Positions 2,439 to 10,285 of a DNA stretch of 45,569 nt are shown piece by piece. The notes beneath the pieces are model-generated. The model searched no databases. It worked only from the letters and a program-made list of their open reading frames with translations, and was not told the origin of the DNA. The position numbers and the translations under genes were made by a program. The stretch's first letter is position 1. Every line of letters starts with the position of its first letter. Source of the DNA: Deltaproteobacteria bacterium (GTDB lineage Bacteria; Myxococcota_A; UBA9160; UBA6930); NCBI GenBank assembly GCA_019312665.1, contig JAFDCZ010000008.1:1-45569 (forward strand). The letters run 5' to 3'.

Positions 2439-2744
2439 AATTCCACCTCTGTGAGACAATGGCGAATCTGTGCGGCGGCGTCGAACAAGCGGTGATCAAG
2501 GCCGACAGGGTCTGAAGTGTGAACTCGCCTGGGGCCCTGCGGTCCGGGATGGTTATGTGCTCACATCTCCTGAGGCATCCTGTCCGGGCAGCCGGGCGCT
2601 GAGGCGTATGTACCCTCCAGCCTCCGGCCCTGGAGGTTTCTCGTGCCACGGGCTCTGGCACGCGGTGTGCAGCCCATGAACGGAGACATCGGAAGGGGTC
2701 GCTTTGCGCGCGACGCTCTCCCTTCAAGAACACGAGGGACAAAC

Positions 2745-4403
2745 ATGAAGGTTTTTGGTCGCGCGGCCACTGGTGCTCTTGTCTCGATCGTGTCGGCTCT
2801 CTTGGCGTGCGGAGCCGACGCCGCTTCCAGGCCCAATATCCTGCTCGTCGTCGCGGACGACATGGGATACTCGGACGTCGGGGCCTTCGGTGGAGAGATT
2901 CGGACGCCCAACATCGACGCGCTCGCAGAGTCCGGGTTCCGTGCGACGAGCTTCTACGTCTCGCCCAGCTGCGCCCCGACGCGAGCGATGTTGATGAGCG
3001 GGGCGGACAATCACGTGGCCGGGCTGGGCAACCAGAAGGAGGCCCTCACGGAGAACCAGAAGGGCAAGCCGGGCTACGAAGGCCACATCAATGATCGGGT
3101 GGTGACCGTCGCTTCCCTCCTGCGTGACGCCGGGTATCACACCTACATGGCGGGCAAGTGGCATCTGGGCGATGAGATCGAGCAGGATCCCCACAACCGG
3201 GGATTCGAGAAGGCGTTCACGCTGCTGCAGGGCGGCGCCAGCCACTTCGCTGACGAGTGGATGATGTACGCCAACTACACACCGATCTATCGCGAGAACG
3301 GTCAGCGGGTGCACCTGCCCGAGGGTTTCTTCTCCAGTGAGTTCTACACGGACAAGCTGATCGAGTACATCGACGGCGCGAAGGATGAAGAGCCCTTCTT
3401 CGCCTACCTGGCCTTCACCGCGCCACACGACCCGCTGCATCTGCCCGATGATTGGCTGGACAAGTACGAGGGACGGTACGGCGCGGGTTACGAGGCCCTG
3501 CGCAAGGAGCGCCTGAAGCGCATGAAGGAGCTCGGCATCGTCGCGGCGAAGACCGAGCTCTCGCATTCGTTGCCGATGATCCCCAGGTGGGATTCGCTCG
3601 ATGCCGAGCAGAAGCGTGTCATGGCCAGGCGGATGGAGCTGCACGCCGGCATGGTCGAGAACCTGGATCATCATCTGGGCCGGCTGCTTGCCCACTTGAA
3701 GCAGAAGGGCGTCTACGACGACACGCTGATCATCTTCTTGTCGGACAACGGCGCCAGCCCGGCGGAGGTCCACAACTATCCTGACACGACCGCCGCCTGG
3801 GTGGAGCGCAACTCCGACAACCGTCTCGAGAACCTGGGGCGCCGGGGCTCGCGAACGGGCCTCGGCATGGCTTGGGCACTCTCCAGCGGCACGCCGCTGC
3901 GCTTCTTCAAGGGTTTCCATGCAGAAGGCGGAATCCGCGTGCCGCTCGTCGTCTCCGGTCCCGGCGTGGCGAGGATCGGGCAGATCGATGCCGCTTTCAC
4001 CCATGTCATGGACATCGCGCCGACGCTGCTCGATGTGGCCGGGGCGTCTCACCCCTACCCCGACAAGTACAAGGGGCGCCAGGTGCAGCCGCTTGGAGGC
4101 AAGTCCATGGTGTCCTTCCTCGCCGGGAAGACGGATGGCGTGCGGGATGACAGTGAAGCGGTCTCCTGGGAGTCGGTCGGATGGCGCGCCGTTCGCAAGG
4201 GTCCCTGGAAGGCGACCTGGTTCGCGAGCCCCTTCGGGCCGGACGACTGGCAACTGTTCAACCTCGACGATGACCTCAGCGAGCGAAACGATCTCGCCCA
4301 CGAGAACAAGGCGAAGCTCGACGAGCTGATCCTGGCGTGGGAGGACTACGCCGAGGAGGCCGGTGTGGTGCTGCCAACCTCGGGGCTCCAGCTGGGCGAC
4401 TGA
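2745..4403 (+). CDS. Arylsulfatase (formylglycine-dependent sulfatase)
   Basis: RPNILLVVADDMGYSDVGAFGGEIRTPNIDALAESG and CAPTRAMLMSG (C-x-P-x-R type motif), GKWHLG, DNGAS. Start at 2745 gives a signal peptide MKVFGRAATGALVSIVSALLACGADA. Confidence 0.9.
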   Translation: MKVFGRAATGALVSIVSALLACGADAASRPNILLVVADDMGYSDVGAFGGEIRTPNIDALAESGFRATSFYVSPSCAPTRAMLMSGADNHVAGLGNQKEALTENQKGKPGYEGHINDRVVTVASLLRDAGYHTYMAGKWHLGDEIEQDPHNRGFEKAFTLLQGGASHFADEWMMYANYTPIYRENGQRVHLPEGFFSSEFYTDKLIEYIDGAKDEEPFFAYLAFTAPHDPLHLPDDWLDKYEGRYGAGYEALRKERLKRMKELGIVAAKTELSHSLPMIPRWDSLDAEQKRVMARRMELHAGMVENLDHHLGRLLAHLKQKGVYDDTLIIFLSDNGASPAEVHNYPDTTAAWVERNSDNRLENLGRRGSRTGLGMAWALSSGTPLRFFKGFHAEGGIRVPLVVSGPGVARIGQIDAAFTHVMDIAPTLLDVAGASHPYPDKYKGRQVQPLGGKSMVSFLAGKTDGVRDDSEAVSWESVGWRAVRKGPWKATWFASPFGPDDWQLFNLDDDLSERNDLAHENKAKLDELILAWEDYAEEAGVVLPTSGLQLGD

Positions 4404-5476: not shown

Positions 5477-6472
5477 TTATAGGGTCCGGCCACCCGAATT
5501 CGCAAGCATTCCGAGATCGTGGTCGACCGCCACCGGCCCCAGATCCCCGATCATGCACTTTACCGAGCCGCCGCCCTTCTTGAGGAACTCGGAGACATCG
5601 ACGGTGACGGGTGAGACTCCTCGCTCGCGGATCTGATCGAGGAGGGTCTCCGAGACGCCTGCGGGCAGGATCAGATGGGAGGCGCCGGCCTGGCTGAGGG
5701 TGAACGAGTTGGCGGCGTAATGCTCGGCGTCGGCCACGGAGAGCCGGATCAACCGCTCTCCGAAGGACGTTTCGAGTTGGCTCCACGCCTCGGGCTCGAT
5801 GCTCTCGCGGTAGGCGAGCAGGAATTCGCGGCTCGGCCCGAAGGCGCACAGCGCGGTGTCGCCGTGGTAGTGCGCTTCGAGGACGAGCTTGATGTGAAGC
5901 ACGGGGCGCGGAGCCACGAGTCCCTCGAGAAATGGTGCAACGCCGACGTCGGTGCGAAACCCGTACACCCGCTTCCATGGCGGCCAGGTGAAGGCGGGCA
6001 CGAAGCGCTGCTTCTCGATGCCGCCGAAAGTCAGCAGGTAGTGGTCGCCGGCGGGAAAGAAATCGGCTTCACCTTCCATGCGGTAGCGTTCGTCGATTTC
6101 AGCGAGTCGAAAGCCTGCGGCTTCGAGCACTCGACGGTAATGCGCTTTTTCGCCAGCGCGCGTTGGGAGCAGGTTGGCCAGGTAGAAGGTCTTCTCCGAG
6201 AGCGGGCGTTCGGCATCGACGTCCGTCTGGAACCCGGCGTTGGCCGGATAGACCATGCCGGGCTGCGCCGGGTCGGGCGGAACGACCAGCACCTGGACGC
6301 CCAGGTCGCGCAGGGTATCGCGGAGGTGTTGCCACTGGACGATGGCTTTCGATCGGTCGACGCTGCGCCGGCGGCCCCAGCGATCACGGGTATGTGGGTT
6401 GGCGCCGCCTTGCACGCTGAAGTGGGCAGGGTCGCCCATCAGCACCCAGTGTCGGTAGCGGGTTTCGCTCAC
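5477..6472 (-). CDS. Amidinotransferase/DDAH/arginine-deiminase-like (COG1834-like) hydrolase in the astB position
   Basis: GTG start at 6472 overlaps the stop of the upstream aldehyde dehydrogenase (GTGA). Pattern ...VLVVPPDPAQPGMVYPANAGF...FFPAGDHYLLTFGG...KKGGGSVKCM, with a C-terminal GGG-x-x-x-C catalytic-Cys motif of the guanidino-modifying enzyme superfamily. Confidence 0.75.
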   Translation of the reverse strand: MSETRYRHWVLMGDPAHFSVQGGANPHTRDRWGRRRSVDRSKAIVQWQHLRDTLRDLGVQVLVVPPDPAQPGMVYPANAGFQTDVDAERPLSEKTFYLANLLPTRAGEKAHYRRVLEAAGFRLAEIDERYRMEGEADFFPAGDHYLLTFGGIEKQRFVPAFTWPPWKRVYGFRTDVGVAPFLEGLVAPRPVLHIKLVLEAHYHGDTALCAFGPSREFLLAYRESIEPEAWSQLETSFGERLIRLSVADAEHYAANSFTLSQAGASHLILPAGVSETLLDQIRERGVSPVTVDVSEFLKKGGGSVKCMIGDLGPVAVDHDLGMLANSGGRTL

Positions 6473-7890
6473 GAACGGGGGAAGCCGGTGGGCAGGGCCT
6501 CGGGGTCGAGCCCGCCTTCGAACTCCAGGTGCGCCTGAGGGACGGTGCAGTAGACGGTCGCAAGAATTCCAGCAGGGCGATCGTTGCCGCTTTTTCCGCC
6601 GCCGCCAAAGGGGAGCCGGCCGCTCGCGCCGATCGTACCCTTGTTCCAGTTCAAGATGCCCGTGCGGACATTCCCGACACAATGCTCGAAGTGGGCGCGG
6701 CTACGCGTCATGACAGAGGCGGCCAGGCCGTATTCCGAATCGTTGACTGCGGCAATTCCCTGGTCGAGGTCGTCGATTGGATACAGGGCGGCTTCGGGCC
6801 CGAAGAGCTCCTCGCGTTGGTAGGCGTGTGTTTGTTCCGTGCTGGCGAAGCGCACCAGGCCCGGCGCGATATAGGGCGCGATGCGGAGCGTCTCGCCGCG
6901 GAAGACGCGCTCGCCGCCCGCCGCTTCAGCTTGGGCCCGCATTCGTTGCACGCGCTCGAAGGCGGTACGGGAGACCAACGGCCCCATGAAGGTGCCCTCT
7001 TCGAGCGGCGGACCGATCTGCAAGCCGGAAAGGATGCTCGTCAATCGCTCCTGCATCTCCTCCAGGACGGAGTGGTGCACGAAGAGCCGCGACAGGCATG
7101 AACAACGTTGTCCCGTGGTCGCGGTGATCGAGAGCGCGGCTTCCGCAGCCGCCAGCTCGAGATCCGCGTCCTCCAGCACGAGCATGGCGTTCTTGCCACC
7201 CATCTCCAGCGCCAGGAGCTTGCCGGGCTGATCGAGCGTGGCTTCACGCAGCGCTCGGCCGACGGCGTAGGAGCCCGTGAAGAGCACGCCGTCGACGTCT
7301 TCGGCGAGGGCGAGGGTCTGGCCTGTTTCGGCGCCGCCTTGCACCAGTTCGAAGACGCCAGGGGGGAGTCCGGAGTCGCGCCAGGCCCGCTGCATCCATT
7401 CTCCGACGGCCGGTGTGAGATCACTCGGCTTGAAGACCACACAGTTGCCGGTGGCCAGGGCGGGCACGATATGGCCGTTCGGGAGATGCGCGGGAAAATT
7501 GAAAGGGCCGAGCACCGCGAGTACGCCTCGCGGATGAAAGGTCGCACGCGCACTCGCATTGACGATCATCGTCTCGGCGTAAGCCATGCCATGCTCGAGG
7601 GTCACGTCCACCTTGGCGGGAAGCAGGGCCGCTTCGCCGCGGGCATCCCAGAGCGCTTTGCCCATTTCTCGAGCGATCAGCTGGGCTAGCTCTTCTTTGC
7701 GCTCCGAGGTCAGATCCCGAAAACGGCGCAGCACGTTCGCGCGCTCCTCGAAGCCTGCATCTCGCCAGCGCGGGAAGGCCTCTCGCGCTCGGCCAACGGC
7801 TTCGGCGATGGCATCCGAATCCCATATCGCGAAGCGTCCGATCTCGTCGGCCGGATCCGCCGGGGAAAGACTGCGCAGGATGTCGCTCAT
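6469..7890 (-). CDS. astD: N-succinylglutamate 5-semialdehyde dehydrogenase (aldehyde dehydrogenase family)
   Basis: FNFPAHLPNGHIVPALATGNCVVFKPSDLTP, LFTGSYAVGRALRE, LALEMGGKNAMLVLEDADLELA, ATTGQRCSCLSRLFV; context with AstA. ATGA overlap with the upstream gene. Confidence 0.85.
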   Translation of the reverse strand: MSDILRSLSPADPADEIGRFAIWDSDAIAEAVGRAREAFPRWRDAGFEERANVLRRFRDLTSERKEELAQLIAREMGKALWDARGEAALLPAKVDVTLEHGMAYAETMIVNASARATFHPRGVLAVLGPFNFPAHLPNGHIVPALATGNCVVFKPSDLTPAVGEWMQRAWRDSGLPPGVFELVQGGAETGQTLALAEDVDGVLFTGSYAVGRALREATLDQPGKLLALEMGGKNAMLVLEDADLELAAAEAALSITATTGQRCSCLSRLFVHHSVLEEMQERLTSILSGLQIGPPLEEGTFMGPLVSRTAFERVQRMRAQAEAAGGERVFRGETLRIAPYIAPGLVRFASTEQTHAYQREELFGPEAALYPIDDLDQGIAAVNDSEYGLAASVMTRSRAHFEHCVGNVRTGILNWNKGTIGASGRLPFGGGGKSGNDRPAGILATVYCTVPQAHLEFEGGLDPEALPTGFPRS

Positions 7891-8912
7891 GGCAGAGGTG
7901 TGACCGAGACGCGGTCGCCTGAGTGGACGTCGAGCGCTGCTCGGCAGCCTTCGGAGACGATGGGCGCGTCGTCGCTTGTGAGCGGGACGACGGTTGCGCG
8001 GAAATGTCCGCCGGCCTCGGTGGAGAGCAGGGCCATATCAGGTTCGGCTTGCTCGTCTTGTTCGACGGGAACACCGGGCAACACCAGCTCGCGCCGCTCA
8101 CGAACAGAAGCGATGGCGTCCCGTGCCGCGCCGTAGTAGGGCCCGCCATCGAAGGGATCGACTTGGTTCAGTGGATGGAAGCCGACGCGTTCGAGGATGC
8201 GCACGGCGGCCTTGGCCGATTCATTGGCCTGGCCGATCACTTTCTGCACTTCATCGGGGAAGAGGGTCGCGTAGACGGGATCGCGAGGAAACAGATCGGC
8301 GATGAACTGCTTGGAGCGCGCGGAGAGATGGTCGGCCTCCCGATAGGGAACGCCGGTGAATTTCGCACCGAAGGCATCCCAGAGCAGGTTCTTTCCCGGG
8401 GCTTCGAACGGCGAGAGCATTTCCGCGATCACCTCGCGTTCGAAGCACTCACGATGGGCTCCGATGTAGGCAAAGCGCACGATCGAAAGGGCCTTGCCGC
8501 AACGTTCAGCGTGGCCCCGGTAGGCCGGATCGAGAATCAGCCCGCCTACCTCGGTGGGGCCGTCCTCGGTCGAGCGCAACTGCAGCTTCTGATGGACGAA
8601 GCGCGCATCCAGCTCAGCGCTGCGTCGTTCCTCGGTCGAGACTTCGAGCCAATAGTAGGGCACGCCAGGCCGACCATGTTTGGCCAGGATCAACGACGTT
8701 CCTACGCAGCGCGACGCTTCGTGGTCGTAGAGAACGAATTGATGGACCGCTTCGCTGGGGTCGTCGAGAAGCCCGGCGAACGATCGCTCCGAGAGCGCGA
8801 TGCGTGTGGCCAGGAATTCCGGATCCCGGGGCAGGTTCATCGAGTCCAGCAGGCCGGCGAGCAGGGCGAGATCGTCGAGATCTCCTGCAGCCACCGGGCG
8901 AAGCGTCAGCAC
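7887..8912 (-). CDS. astA: Arginine N-succinyltransferase
   Basis: LTLRPVAAGDLDDLALLA...VGTSLILAKHGRPGVPYYWLEVSTEERRSAEL...LILDPAYRGHAERCGKALSIVRF...MLSPFEAPGKNLLWDAFGAKFTGVPYREADHLS. GTG start at 8912 overlaps the aminotransferase stop. Confidence 0.88.
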   Translation of the reverse strand: MLTLRPVAAGDLDDLALLAGLLDSMNLPRDPEFLATRIALSERSFAGLLDDPSEAVHQFVLYDHEASRCVGTSLILAKHGRPGVPYYWLEVSTEERRSAELDARFVHQKLQLRSTEDGPTEVGGLILDPAYRGHAERCGKALSIVRFAYIGAHRECFEREVIAEMLSPFEAPGKNLLWDAFGAKFTGVPYREADHLSARSKQFIADLFPRDPVYATLFPDEVQKVIGQANESAKAAVRILERVGFHPLNQVDPFDGGPYYGAARDAIASVRERRELVLPGVPVEQDEQAEPDMALLSTEAGGHFRATVVPLTSDDAPIVSEGCRAALDVHSGDRVSVTPLP

Positions 8913-10285
8913 GGGAGCCCCCGCTCTTCGCCGACCGCAGCGAGTGCCTTCTCGAGGATCGCGAAACCCTGCTCCAGCTCTTCGTCCGTGGTGTTGACGG
9001 GCAGCAGCATGCGTACCTTCATGGGGCTTCGGCCAGCGCCGAAGACGAGGAGGCCTTCTTCGAAGCACTTCCTTAGGACGGCGCCGACCACCTCCGGGTT
9101 CCCGTTCCATGGAACGAAGGCCTGCATGGCGCCGATTCCGCTGCGCGGGCCGATCGCCTGGGGCATGCGCTTCGCGAGGGATTCGAAGCGGCGCTCTACG
9201 CGGCGAGCCAGCACGACGACCCGACCCTCCGGGCCGAGGTAGCCCTCCTGGTCGAGGCGTTCGATGATGCGGGCGCCGACCGCCATGCCGACCGTGGAGC
9301 CGGCGTAGGTGCCGGAGATCAAGCCGGGCTTCGGGTTGTAGCGCCGGCTGAAGAGCACAGCGCTGCCTTGGAGTATCTTGCCTAACGTGACGACGTCGAC
9401 GAGATCTTCCAGCCCGAGGGTCCGAAAGGCGTAGAGCTCGCCGGTTCGCGCAAACGTCTGCACCTCGTCTACCCAGACCGCGAGGCCTGCTTCACGACAG
9501 CGCTCCATGAGCGCCCGGAAGTATTCCGGCGGGGCGGTGTTGAAACCACCTTCGCCTTGCACCAACTCGAACATCATCGCTGCGATCCGGCCCGGGAAGC
9601 GGCCCAGGTGGGCCTCCAGCGCATCGAGGCTGTGCCGGATCGGATCCGTTTGCGTCGGGTCGTAGAAAGGAACGTGCAGCACGTTGCCGCGCAACGGCAG
9701 GCCTTCGCGGAAGCCGGGCTTGTCCGTGAGCTCTGCCATGGCGAGGGTGCGACCGGCGAAGGCGTTCTCGAAGACGAGGATGCGATCCGCGGGCTGGTGC
9801 TTCTGGAGGATCATCTTCAGCGCGTTCTCATTGGCCATCGCGCCGGAGACGGAGAGCCACGCATGCTTCAGCTGGGGGCCCGCGTGCTTGATGAGCAGCT
9901 TCGAGAGTTCGAGGTTCTCAACGCCGGGAACCAGGTGGCCCTGGAAAACGGTATCGACAGCGGCCGCGGCCACGGCGGTTTCCAGCAGGTTGCGGTCGCT
10001 ATGACCGAATGCGTAGACGCCGATTCCTCCTATGAAATCGAGCAGTTGGGTGCCGTCCGCAAGCCGAACGGACGCACCCTGGCCAACGCCAGCCTGCAAC
10101 ATGGGCCAACCGAGCGGGCGCCCGCGGAGCCGCTCGAGTTGCTTGATCGCGCGCTCGTACGCAGCGGGGCTGAGCGCCCGGGAATGGGCCTCTTCGGCGA
10201 CGGCATCCAACAGGGCCGCTGCAGCCTTTTTGATCGCCGGCGAGTCCAGCAGGGAACCGCTGGCGCTTCGGGAGCGTCTTGCCAT
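8906..10285 (-). CDS. Class III PLP aminotransferase (astC/argD-like)
   Basis: DFIGGIGVYAFGHSD, SVSGAMANENALKMILQKHQPADRILVFENAFAGRT, WVDEVQTFARTG, VTLGKILQGSAVLF (PLP lysine), SGTYAGSTVGM. Confidence 0.85.
   Translation of the reverse strand: MARRSRSASGSLLDSPAIKKAAAALLDAVAEEAHSRALSPAAYERAIKQLERLRGRPLGWPMLQAGVGQGASVRLADGTQLLDFIGGIGVYAFGHSDRNLLETAVAAAAVDTVFQGHLVPGVENLELSKLLIKHAGPQLKHAWLSVSGAMANENALKMILQKHQPADRILVFENAFAGRTLAMAELTDKPGFREGLPLRGNVLHVPFYDPTQTDPIRHSLDALEAHLGRFPGRIAAMMFELVQGEGGFNTAPPEYFRALMERCREAGLAVWVDEVQTFARTGELYAFRTLGLEDLVDVVTLGKILQGSAVLFSRRYNPKPGLISGTYAGSTVGMAVGARIIERLDQEGYLGPEGRVVVLARRVERRFESLAKRMPQAIGPRSGIGAMQAFVPWNGNPEVVGAVLRKCFEEGLLVFGAGRSPMKVRMLLPVNTTDEELEQGFAILEKALAAVGEERGLPC

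Follow-up and report, generated by a model that had tools for sequence, protein, structure and literature searches.

A putative N2-succinylarginine dihydrolase of arginine-dihydrolase stock in the AstB place of a deltaproteobacterial AST operon

Introduction

Textbooks list the arginine succinyltransferase (AST) pathway among the ways in which arginine is used. The question of how this pathway is completed when AstB is missing is raised by positions 1 to 45,569 of contig JAFDCZ010000008.1 (assembly GCA_019312665.1) of a Deltaproteobacteria bacterium, a stretch of 45,569 nucleotides here called the window. On its minus strand an operon encodes a class III aminotransferase, AstA, AstD and, in the place of AstB, a 331-aa enzyme of the guanidino-modifying enzyme (GME) superfamily. 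The answer that we consider probable is that the operon encodes the AST pathway, and that AstB has been replaced by a GME drawn from arginine-dihydrolase (ArgZ-type) stock, a putative N2-succinylarginine dihydrolase. Within the open-access literature that was searched, no substitute for AstB had been described before.

Results

The four genes lie on the minus strand in the order aminotransferase (8906..10285, 459 aa), AstA (7887..8912, 341 aa, GTG start), AstD (6469..7890, 473 aa) and GME (5477..6472, 331 aa, GTG start), and the overlapping junctions described in an earlier, sequence-only reading of the window are indeed present. The aminotransferase and AstA genes share seven bases, GTGCTGA, the GTG of AstA lying inside the end of the aminotransferase gene, and the following two junctions are an ATGA overlap (AstA/AstD) and a GTGA overlap (AstD/GME). 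AstA, of the arginine/ornithine N-succinyltransferase family, matches PF04958 with 290.9 bits (cut-off 29.4 bits), scores 218 bits, under the cut-off, with TIGR03243, and is 33% identical to E. coli AstA. AstD is succinylglutamate semialdehyde dehydrogenase-like: its top NCBIfam models are succinylglutamate-semialdehyde dehydrogenases (PRK09457, 426 bits; TIGR03240, 408 bits; both under the cut-offs), it is 39% identical to E. coli AstD and it keeps the GQRC motif. The operon is classed as an AST operon on AstA and AstD being encoded together (291 bits with PF04958; AstD models best, at sub-cut-off scores). The aminotransferase is a class III pyridoxal phosphate enzyme (PF00202, 166 bits) whose GK, DEVQT and QGEGG motifs line up with those of E. 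coli AstC at 31% identity, and TIGR03246 is not among its 25 best models. Its earlier description as astC-like has to be loosened to a distant AstC relative, for which we propose the AstC role of N2-succinylornithine transaminase. The operon has in common with E. coli astCADBE the homologous AstA and AstD, the core order aminotransferase-A-D-dihydrolase and, as proposed, the overall chemistry; it differs in having an enzyme of another family for AstB (PF04996) and no AstE.

The protein in the astB slot had been described as shorter than AstB and without its sequence, and this was borne out: the PF04996 profile gives no match to it, its 331 residues compare with about 440 for AstB, and hhalign against E. 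coli AstB returns a probability of 2%, a direct alignment being unusable, so that the two were compared at the level of motifs. By sequence, the closest solved proteins are the arginine dihydrolases Sll1336 (ArgZ) and Alr4995 (AgrE) (E 1e-15). A Foldseek search with the AlphaFold model of the GME (mean predicted local distance difference test score, pLDDT, 89.5) likewise returns ligand-bound ArgZ first (E 5e-23, template modelling (TM) score 0.90 to target), followed by dimethylarginine dimethylaminohydrolase (DDAH; E 4e-14) and AstB (1YNF; E 2e-13, TM 0.65 to query). The former label, DDAH/deiminase-like, has to be amended, the nearest characterised relatives by sequence and fold being ArgZ and AgrE. 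In a tree, all proteins with Gly at the position discussed below fall on one side of a branch (support 100/97), and ArgZ, DDAH and the other proteins with Asp fall on the other. Taken from its sequence and modelled fold, the GME is most likely a dihydrolase of ArgZ stock, outside the AstB family, that would work like AstB.

The names attached to the protein by automatic annotation would suggest another function. Its Pfam label is DDAH_eukar (40 bits, over the C-terminal part alone) and its top NCBIfam match is a mycobacterial-type 'dimethylargininase' model (121 bits, under the cut-off of 300), as would suit a methylarginine (DDAH), citrulline (CtlX) or arginine (deiminase) hydrolase that is cotranscribed with the ast genes by happenstance. 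We regard such a hydrolase as very improbable. The GME falls short of the cut-offs of all curated equivalog models, scoring 27, 121 and 27 bits with the DDAH models NF045658, NF045659 and NF045660 (cut-offs 450, 300 and 340), 28 bits with the CtlX model NF046062 (cut-off 334) and 84 bits with the dihydrolase model NF052232 (cut-off 450). Furthermore, the DDAH residues D60, E65 and D66 (P. aeruginosa numbering) are G72, A77 and N78 in the GME, a lack of the DDAH signature that disfavours the methylated-arginine substrate once considered for it, and YPAN/HGD stands where CtlX has its FPNN/HTN signature.

All nine catalytic and substrate residues compared with ArgZ are kept: N22, N71, R90, E118, D122, R139, H168, D170 and C264 of ArgZ align with N25, N78, R105, E133, D137, R173, H203, D205 and C306 of the GME. 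The catalytic Cys306 (codon at 5555..5557, minus strand; ArgZ C264, AstB C365) closes the C-terminal GGGSVKC motif of the sequence-only reading, found at residues 300-306, and Asn78 (6239..6241, minus strand; ArgZ N71, AstB N110) is the dihydrolase asparagine, kept in nearly every member of the clade. The GME has in this way one of the features expected of an AstB, a GME fold with catalytic Cys, His and Glu and the dihydrolase Asn, and from AstB (1YNF), with which it shares the fold superfamily, the aligned Asn-Glu-His-Cys set and an uncharged subsite residue (Ser in AstB), it differs in the missing profile match and in being about 115 residues shorter.

The dihydrolases ArgZ and AstB have Asn at the N71/N78 position, whereas deiminases and DDAH have Asp. 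With Asn at residue 78, conversion of the guanidine to the amine, and not to citrulline, is therefore predicted. The same residue bears on the possibility that the GME is a succinylarginine deiminase ending at N2-succinylcitrulline, which another route would take up, e.g., one like the arginine biosynthesis by way of succinylated intermediates in Bacteroides. The superfamily has many deiminases, and what ArgZ makes can depend on one residue at this position, the N71S exchange reportedly altering the outcome of the reaction; an N71S ArgZ crystal trapped an intermediate, to go by the title of entry 6JUZ. Yet nearly every member keeps the dihydrolase Asn, and the AstD and class III aminotransferase of the operon require an amine product, which makes a succinylarginine deiminase very improbable. 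In one Gly-type GME subfamily Glu replaces the dihydrolase Asn (AEAG) and HGN replaces HGD (L074, L091, L096, L097, L098 and L103).

Where the GME departs from ArgZ is in the subsite for the alpha-nitrogen of the substrate. Gly72 (6257..6259, minus strand) corresponds to D65 of ArgZ, D60 of P. aeruginosa DDAH and S104 of E. coli AstB; in DDAH, D60 binds the alpha-ammonium of the substrate, and R85 and R132 bind its carboxylate. Residue 72 is Gly in all 28 rows of the clade alignment and in every further clade row compared, and Asp occupies the position in every ArgZ-, DDAH- and CtlX-type sequence compared. The motifs with Asp are PDMVFTAN (ArgZ), PDMVFAAN (actinobacterial 'DDAH'), PDSVFVED (DDAH) and PDAVFPNN (CtlX-type), those with Gly are PGMVYPAN (window clade) and TGMVFAAN (the clade of family f15), with no exception in the rows compared, and four AstBs have Ser (SASxMW). 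Likewise, ArgZ H168-L169 has become His203-Gly204 (5861..5866, minus strand), the Gly being invariant in the clade (HLD to HGD), so that neither Asp65 nor HLD, the marks of ArgZ/AgrE, is found there. The clade also has a segment of its own between E133 and R173, in which P164, P165 and R168 are invariant and Q155 and R156 near-invariant, and R29 of the GME lies in the lid loop. To sum up the comparison with the N-terminal domain of ArgZ/AgrE, the closest solved structure by sequence and fold, the differences are D65 to Gly72, L169 to Gly204, the extra E133-R173 segment and the lack of an ornithine cyclodeaminase domain.

A canonical astB elsewhere in the genome would have spoken against a replacement of AstB. 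The genome of the window (5.3 Mb in 392 contigs, 90% complete) was searched with the PF04996 profile, and none was found, while the E. coli and Caulobacter control genomes do score; nor was AstB found in a 97%-complete genome of the same genus that has AstA and the GME. A pattern search run over species genomes returned 58 loci, from Myxococcota or Deltaproteobacteria, Binataceae, Omnitrophota, Elusimicrobia and Nitrospinae according to the record names. The order aminotransferase-AstA-AstD-GME is found in 24 of them, some truncated by contig ends, and since it is repeated in 24 related loci it is far from chance; AstA-AstD-GME occurs also in Myxococcota, Omnitrophota and other Deltaproteobacteria (again per record names). 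Genomes that bear the clade have AstA in 48 of 50 cases and AstB in none.

The same holds in a sample of 189 genomes drawn evenly from the phylum of the window, with at most 12 candidates scored per genome, in which 71 genomes have AstA, 26 have AstB and 31 carry the GME clade (18 close and 13 second-tier carriers, the latter in family f15). AstA is present in 30 of the 31 carriers (Fisher p 3e-14) and AstB in none of them, and the 71 AstA-positive genomes divide into 30 with the GME, 24 with AstB, none with both and 17 with neither (Fisher p 3e-8), both p values being inflated by the relatedness of the genomes. A chance neighbour, such as a cotranscribed DDAH, CtlX or deiminase, would not follow AstA and exclude AstB across phyla. 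Users of AstB and users of the GME are found inside the same families, namely f1 (AstB in G175; GME in G000, G056, G096 and G189), f6 (AstB in G170; GME in G121) and f15 (AstB in three genomes, GME in thirteen), so the exchange likely occurred more than once.

Within family f1, that of the window, the G175 operon reads M20-aminotransferase-AstA-AstD-AstB; its aminotransferase is 43% identical to that of the window, and AstB occupies the slot of the GME. This shows that operons of one kind can have either AstB or the GME at one and the same position. The AstA and AstD of G175 are closer to the E. coli type, so that the difference between the two operons goes beyond the exchange of one gene against a background of vertical inheritance. 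Together with the tracking of AstA and the exclusion of AstB, the G175 slot strongly supports the non-orthologous replacement that had been suggested from the sequence.

No astE-like gene follows the operon, as had been noted, and this absence turns out to be the rule in the phylum, even beside AstB. In the genome of the window, the best TIGR03242 match has 26 bits (cut-off 306) and belongs to an open reading frame looking secreted, and the PF24827 matches, namely a secreted-looking frame beside an apparent membrane/transglutaminase-like gene and two weak ones, were rejected as AstE. Only one notable AstE match was obtained in the 189 genomes, in G170, downstream of AstB, and AstE is rare across the phylum even in genomes holding AstA and AstB. 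Several relatives of the operon have the order M20-AstA-AstD-GME (L024, L028, L029, L030, L038, L047, L049 and L050 from the pattern search, plus L075 from its genome) or M20-AstA-GME (L039). M20 hydrolases stand at the head of a number of AST operons without AstE (L028, L029, L030, L038, L047, L049, L050 and L075; L072:10666-11958) and fall into an ArgE-like and a PRK07338-like subfamily. The M20 enzymes heading operons, that of G175 included, are likely succinylglutamate desuccinylases. Among the nine PF01546 matches in the genome of the window there is no clear orthologue of the operon-borne M20; the nearest of them, L083, was rejected as a dedicated desuccinylase, its identity being about 29% and its appearance that of an ordinary ArgE.

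As for the surroundings of the operon, the plus strand of the window carries a sulfatase-like gene (2643-4403) and, at the window edge, the apparent end of another (1-954). A MATE-like efflux gene (~300-2100) lies near the operon in L005, L010, L012, L016, L018, L021 and L056; there is none in the window.

Discussion

The reactions that we propose, for all of which we infer the substrates, would begin with the transfer of succinyl from succinyl-CoA to arginine by AstA, giving N2-succinylarginine, which the GME would convert to N2-succinylornithine, 2 NH3 and CO2. In this second step Cys306 would attack the guanidinium carbon with the assistance of H203, E133, D137 and D205, and Asn78, instead of the usual Asp, would permit a second hydrolysis and hence the release of an amine rather than citrulline. 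R105 and R173 would hold the alpha-carboxylate, G72 and G204, standing where in ArgZ an Asp and a Leu border the free alpha-amino group, would make room for the succinyl-amide, and the succinyl carboxylate is perhaps held by the clade-specific arginines R29, R156 and R168, which is a guess. The aminotransferase would then give succinylglutamate semialdehyde and AstD succinylglutamate, from which succinate would be removed by an amidohydrolase encoded elsewhere in the genome of the window, or, in several relatives, by the M20 enzyme whose gene heads the operon.

The order of these steps could also be reversed. The GME would in that case be a free-arginine dihydrolase (ArgZ/AgrE-like) making ornithine, which AstA would succinylate before the aminotransferase and AstD act; succinylarginine does not arise in this order, and AstB is therefore not needed. 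Such an order agrees with the activity of the nearest characterised relatives of the GME on free arginine and with the conservation of R105 and R173, which belong to the alpha-carboxylate site. Enzymes of the AstA family are known to accept ornithine as well (PMC12375414, PMC9007349), and Acinetobacter AstO succinylates it when the bacterium grows on ornithine (PMC12375414), so that much of the co-occurrence would also be expected if a free-arginine dihydrolase supplied AstA with ornithine. CtlX, another GME enzyme and a putative citrullinase adjoining ocd or aruFG, seemingly supplies ornithine to AruG, next to whose gene it is encoded (PMC9007349). Against the reversed order, the presumed alpha-ammonium Asp and the neighbouring Leu are both Gly, as if fitting a bulkier N-substituent, and the equivalent slot in the close relative G175 holds a true AstB. 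Moreover, the genuine Asp-type, ArgZ-like homologues of the phylum are found in genomes without AstA (AstA in none of 8, as opposed to 30 of 31 Gly-type carriers; p 1.5e-7, likewise inflated by relatedness), whereas the window clade occurs with AstA. The homologues L093, L094 and L095, 48-53% identical to cyanobacterial ArgZ, come from Myxococcota-type genomes of the family and order of the window, all without AstA, and two of their frames (689 and 794 aa) are long enough for a bifunctional ArgZ. Because the alpha-ammonium Asp is replaced by Gly and the Asp-type homologues stand apart from AstA, the sequences favour succinylarginine as the substrate of the GME, and the free-arginine alternative, already raised in the sequence-only reading, appears unlikely.

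Several points besides the ornithine use of AstA and the inflated p values weigh against the replacement of AstB as we propose it. In most Binataceae-type loci and in all f15 loci compared the GME is encoded apart from AstA, and nearly all Binataceae-type genomes with a separate GME have AstA elsewhere. Neither AstB nor the clade was found in 17 of the 71 AstA-positive genomes: either AstA is not strictly dependent on one of the two, or there is a further substitute, or detection failed. In two AstA-positive genomes without AstB or the window-type GME, G097 and G136, a divergent GME protein of 361-368 aa (L101 and L105) with TANGP, HGDT and GKAGGGPAC motifs is possibly a third AstB substitute. 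An ANGP-type homologue as the substitute in all AstA-only genomes was rejected, with clear full-length matches in two genomes only.

With respect to the systems described to date, the window GME and CtlX are both enzymes of the GME superfamily encoded beside AST-pathway genes and differ in that the CtlX-type relatives keep the alpha-nitrogen Asp, which is Gly in the GME. Acinetobacter astNOP, a second AST locus, for ornithine (PMC12375414), resembles the operon of the window in being an incomplete AST operon from which astB and astE are missing. By contrast, astNOP has no GME and depends on a full astCADBE elsewhere, while no astB was found in the sequenced part of the genome of the window.

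The operon is, as judged from its sequence, most likely a variant of the known AST pathway in which AstB has been exchanged for another, so far unnamed enzyme catalysing the same reaction, and the same exchange appears in several bacterial phyla. With somewhat less assurance than for the operon itself, we lean towards a broader account, according to which a second family of N2-succinylarginine dihydrolases arose from arginine-dihydrolase stock, lost the alpha-ammonium Asp and repeatedly displaced AstB, with M20 desuccinylases serving for AstE, giving an AST variant that has mostly escaped notice in Myxococcota, Binatota, Omnitrophota, Elusimicrobiota and Nitrospinota. If this is true, one enzyme family closes the AstB gap in several phyla, one enzyme function has arisen twice within the same fold, and an Asp-or-Gly residue rule separates free-arginine from succinylarginine enzymes in the large and badly annotated GME superfamily. 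Annotation relying on AstB and AstE would score the AST pathway as broken or absent in these genomes, and many genomes seemingly without the pathway may possess it.

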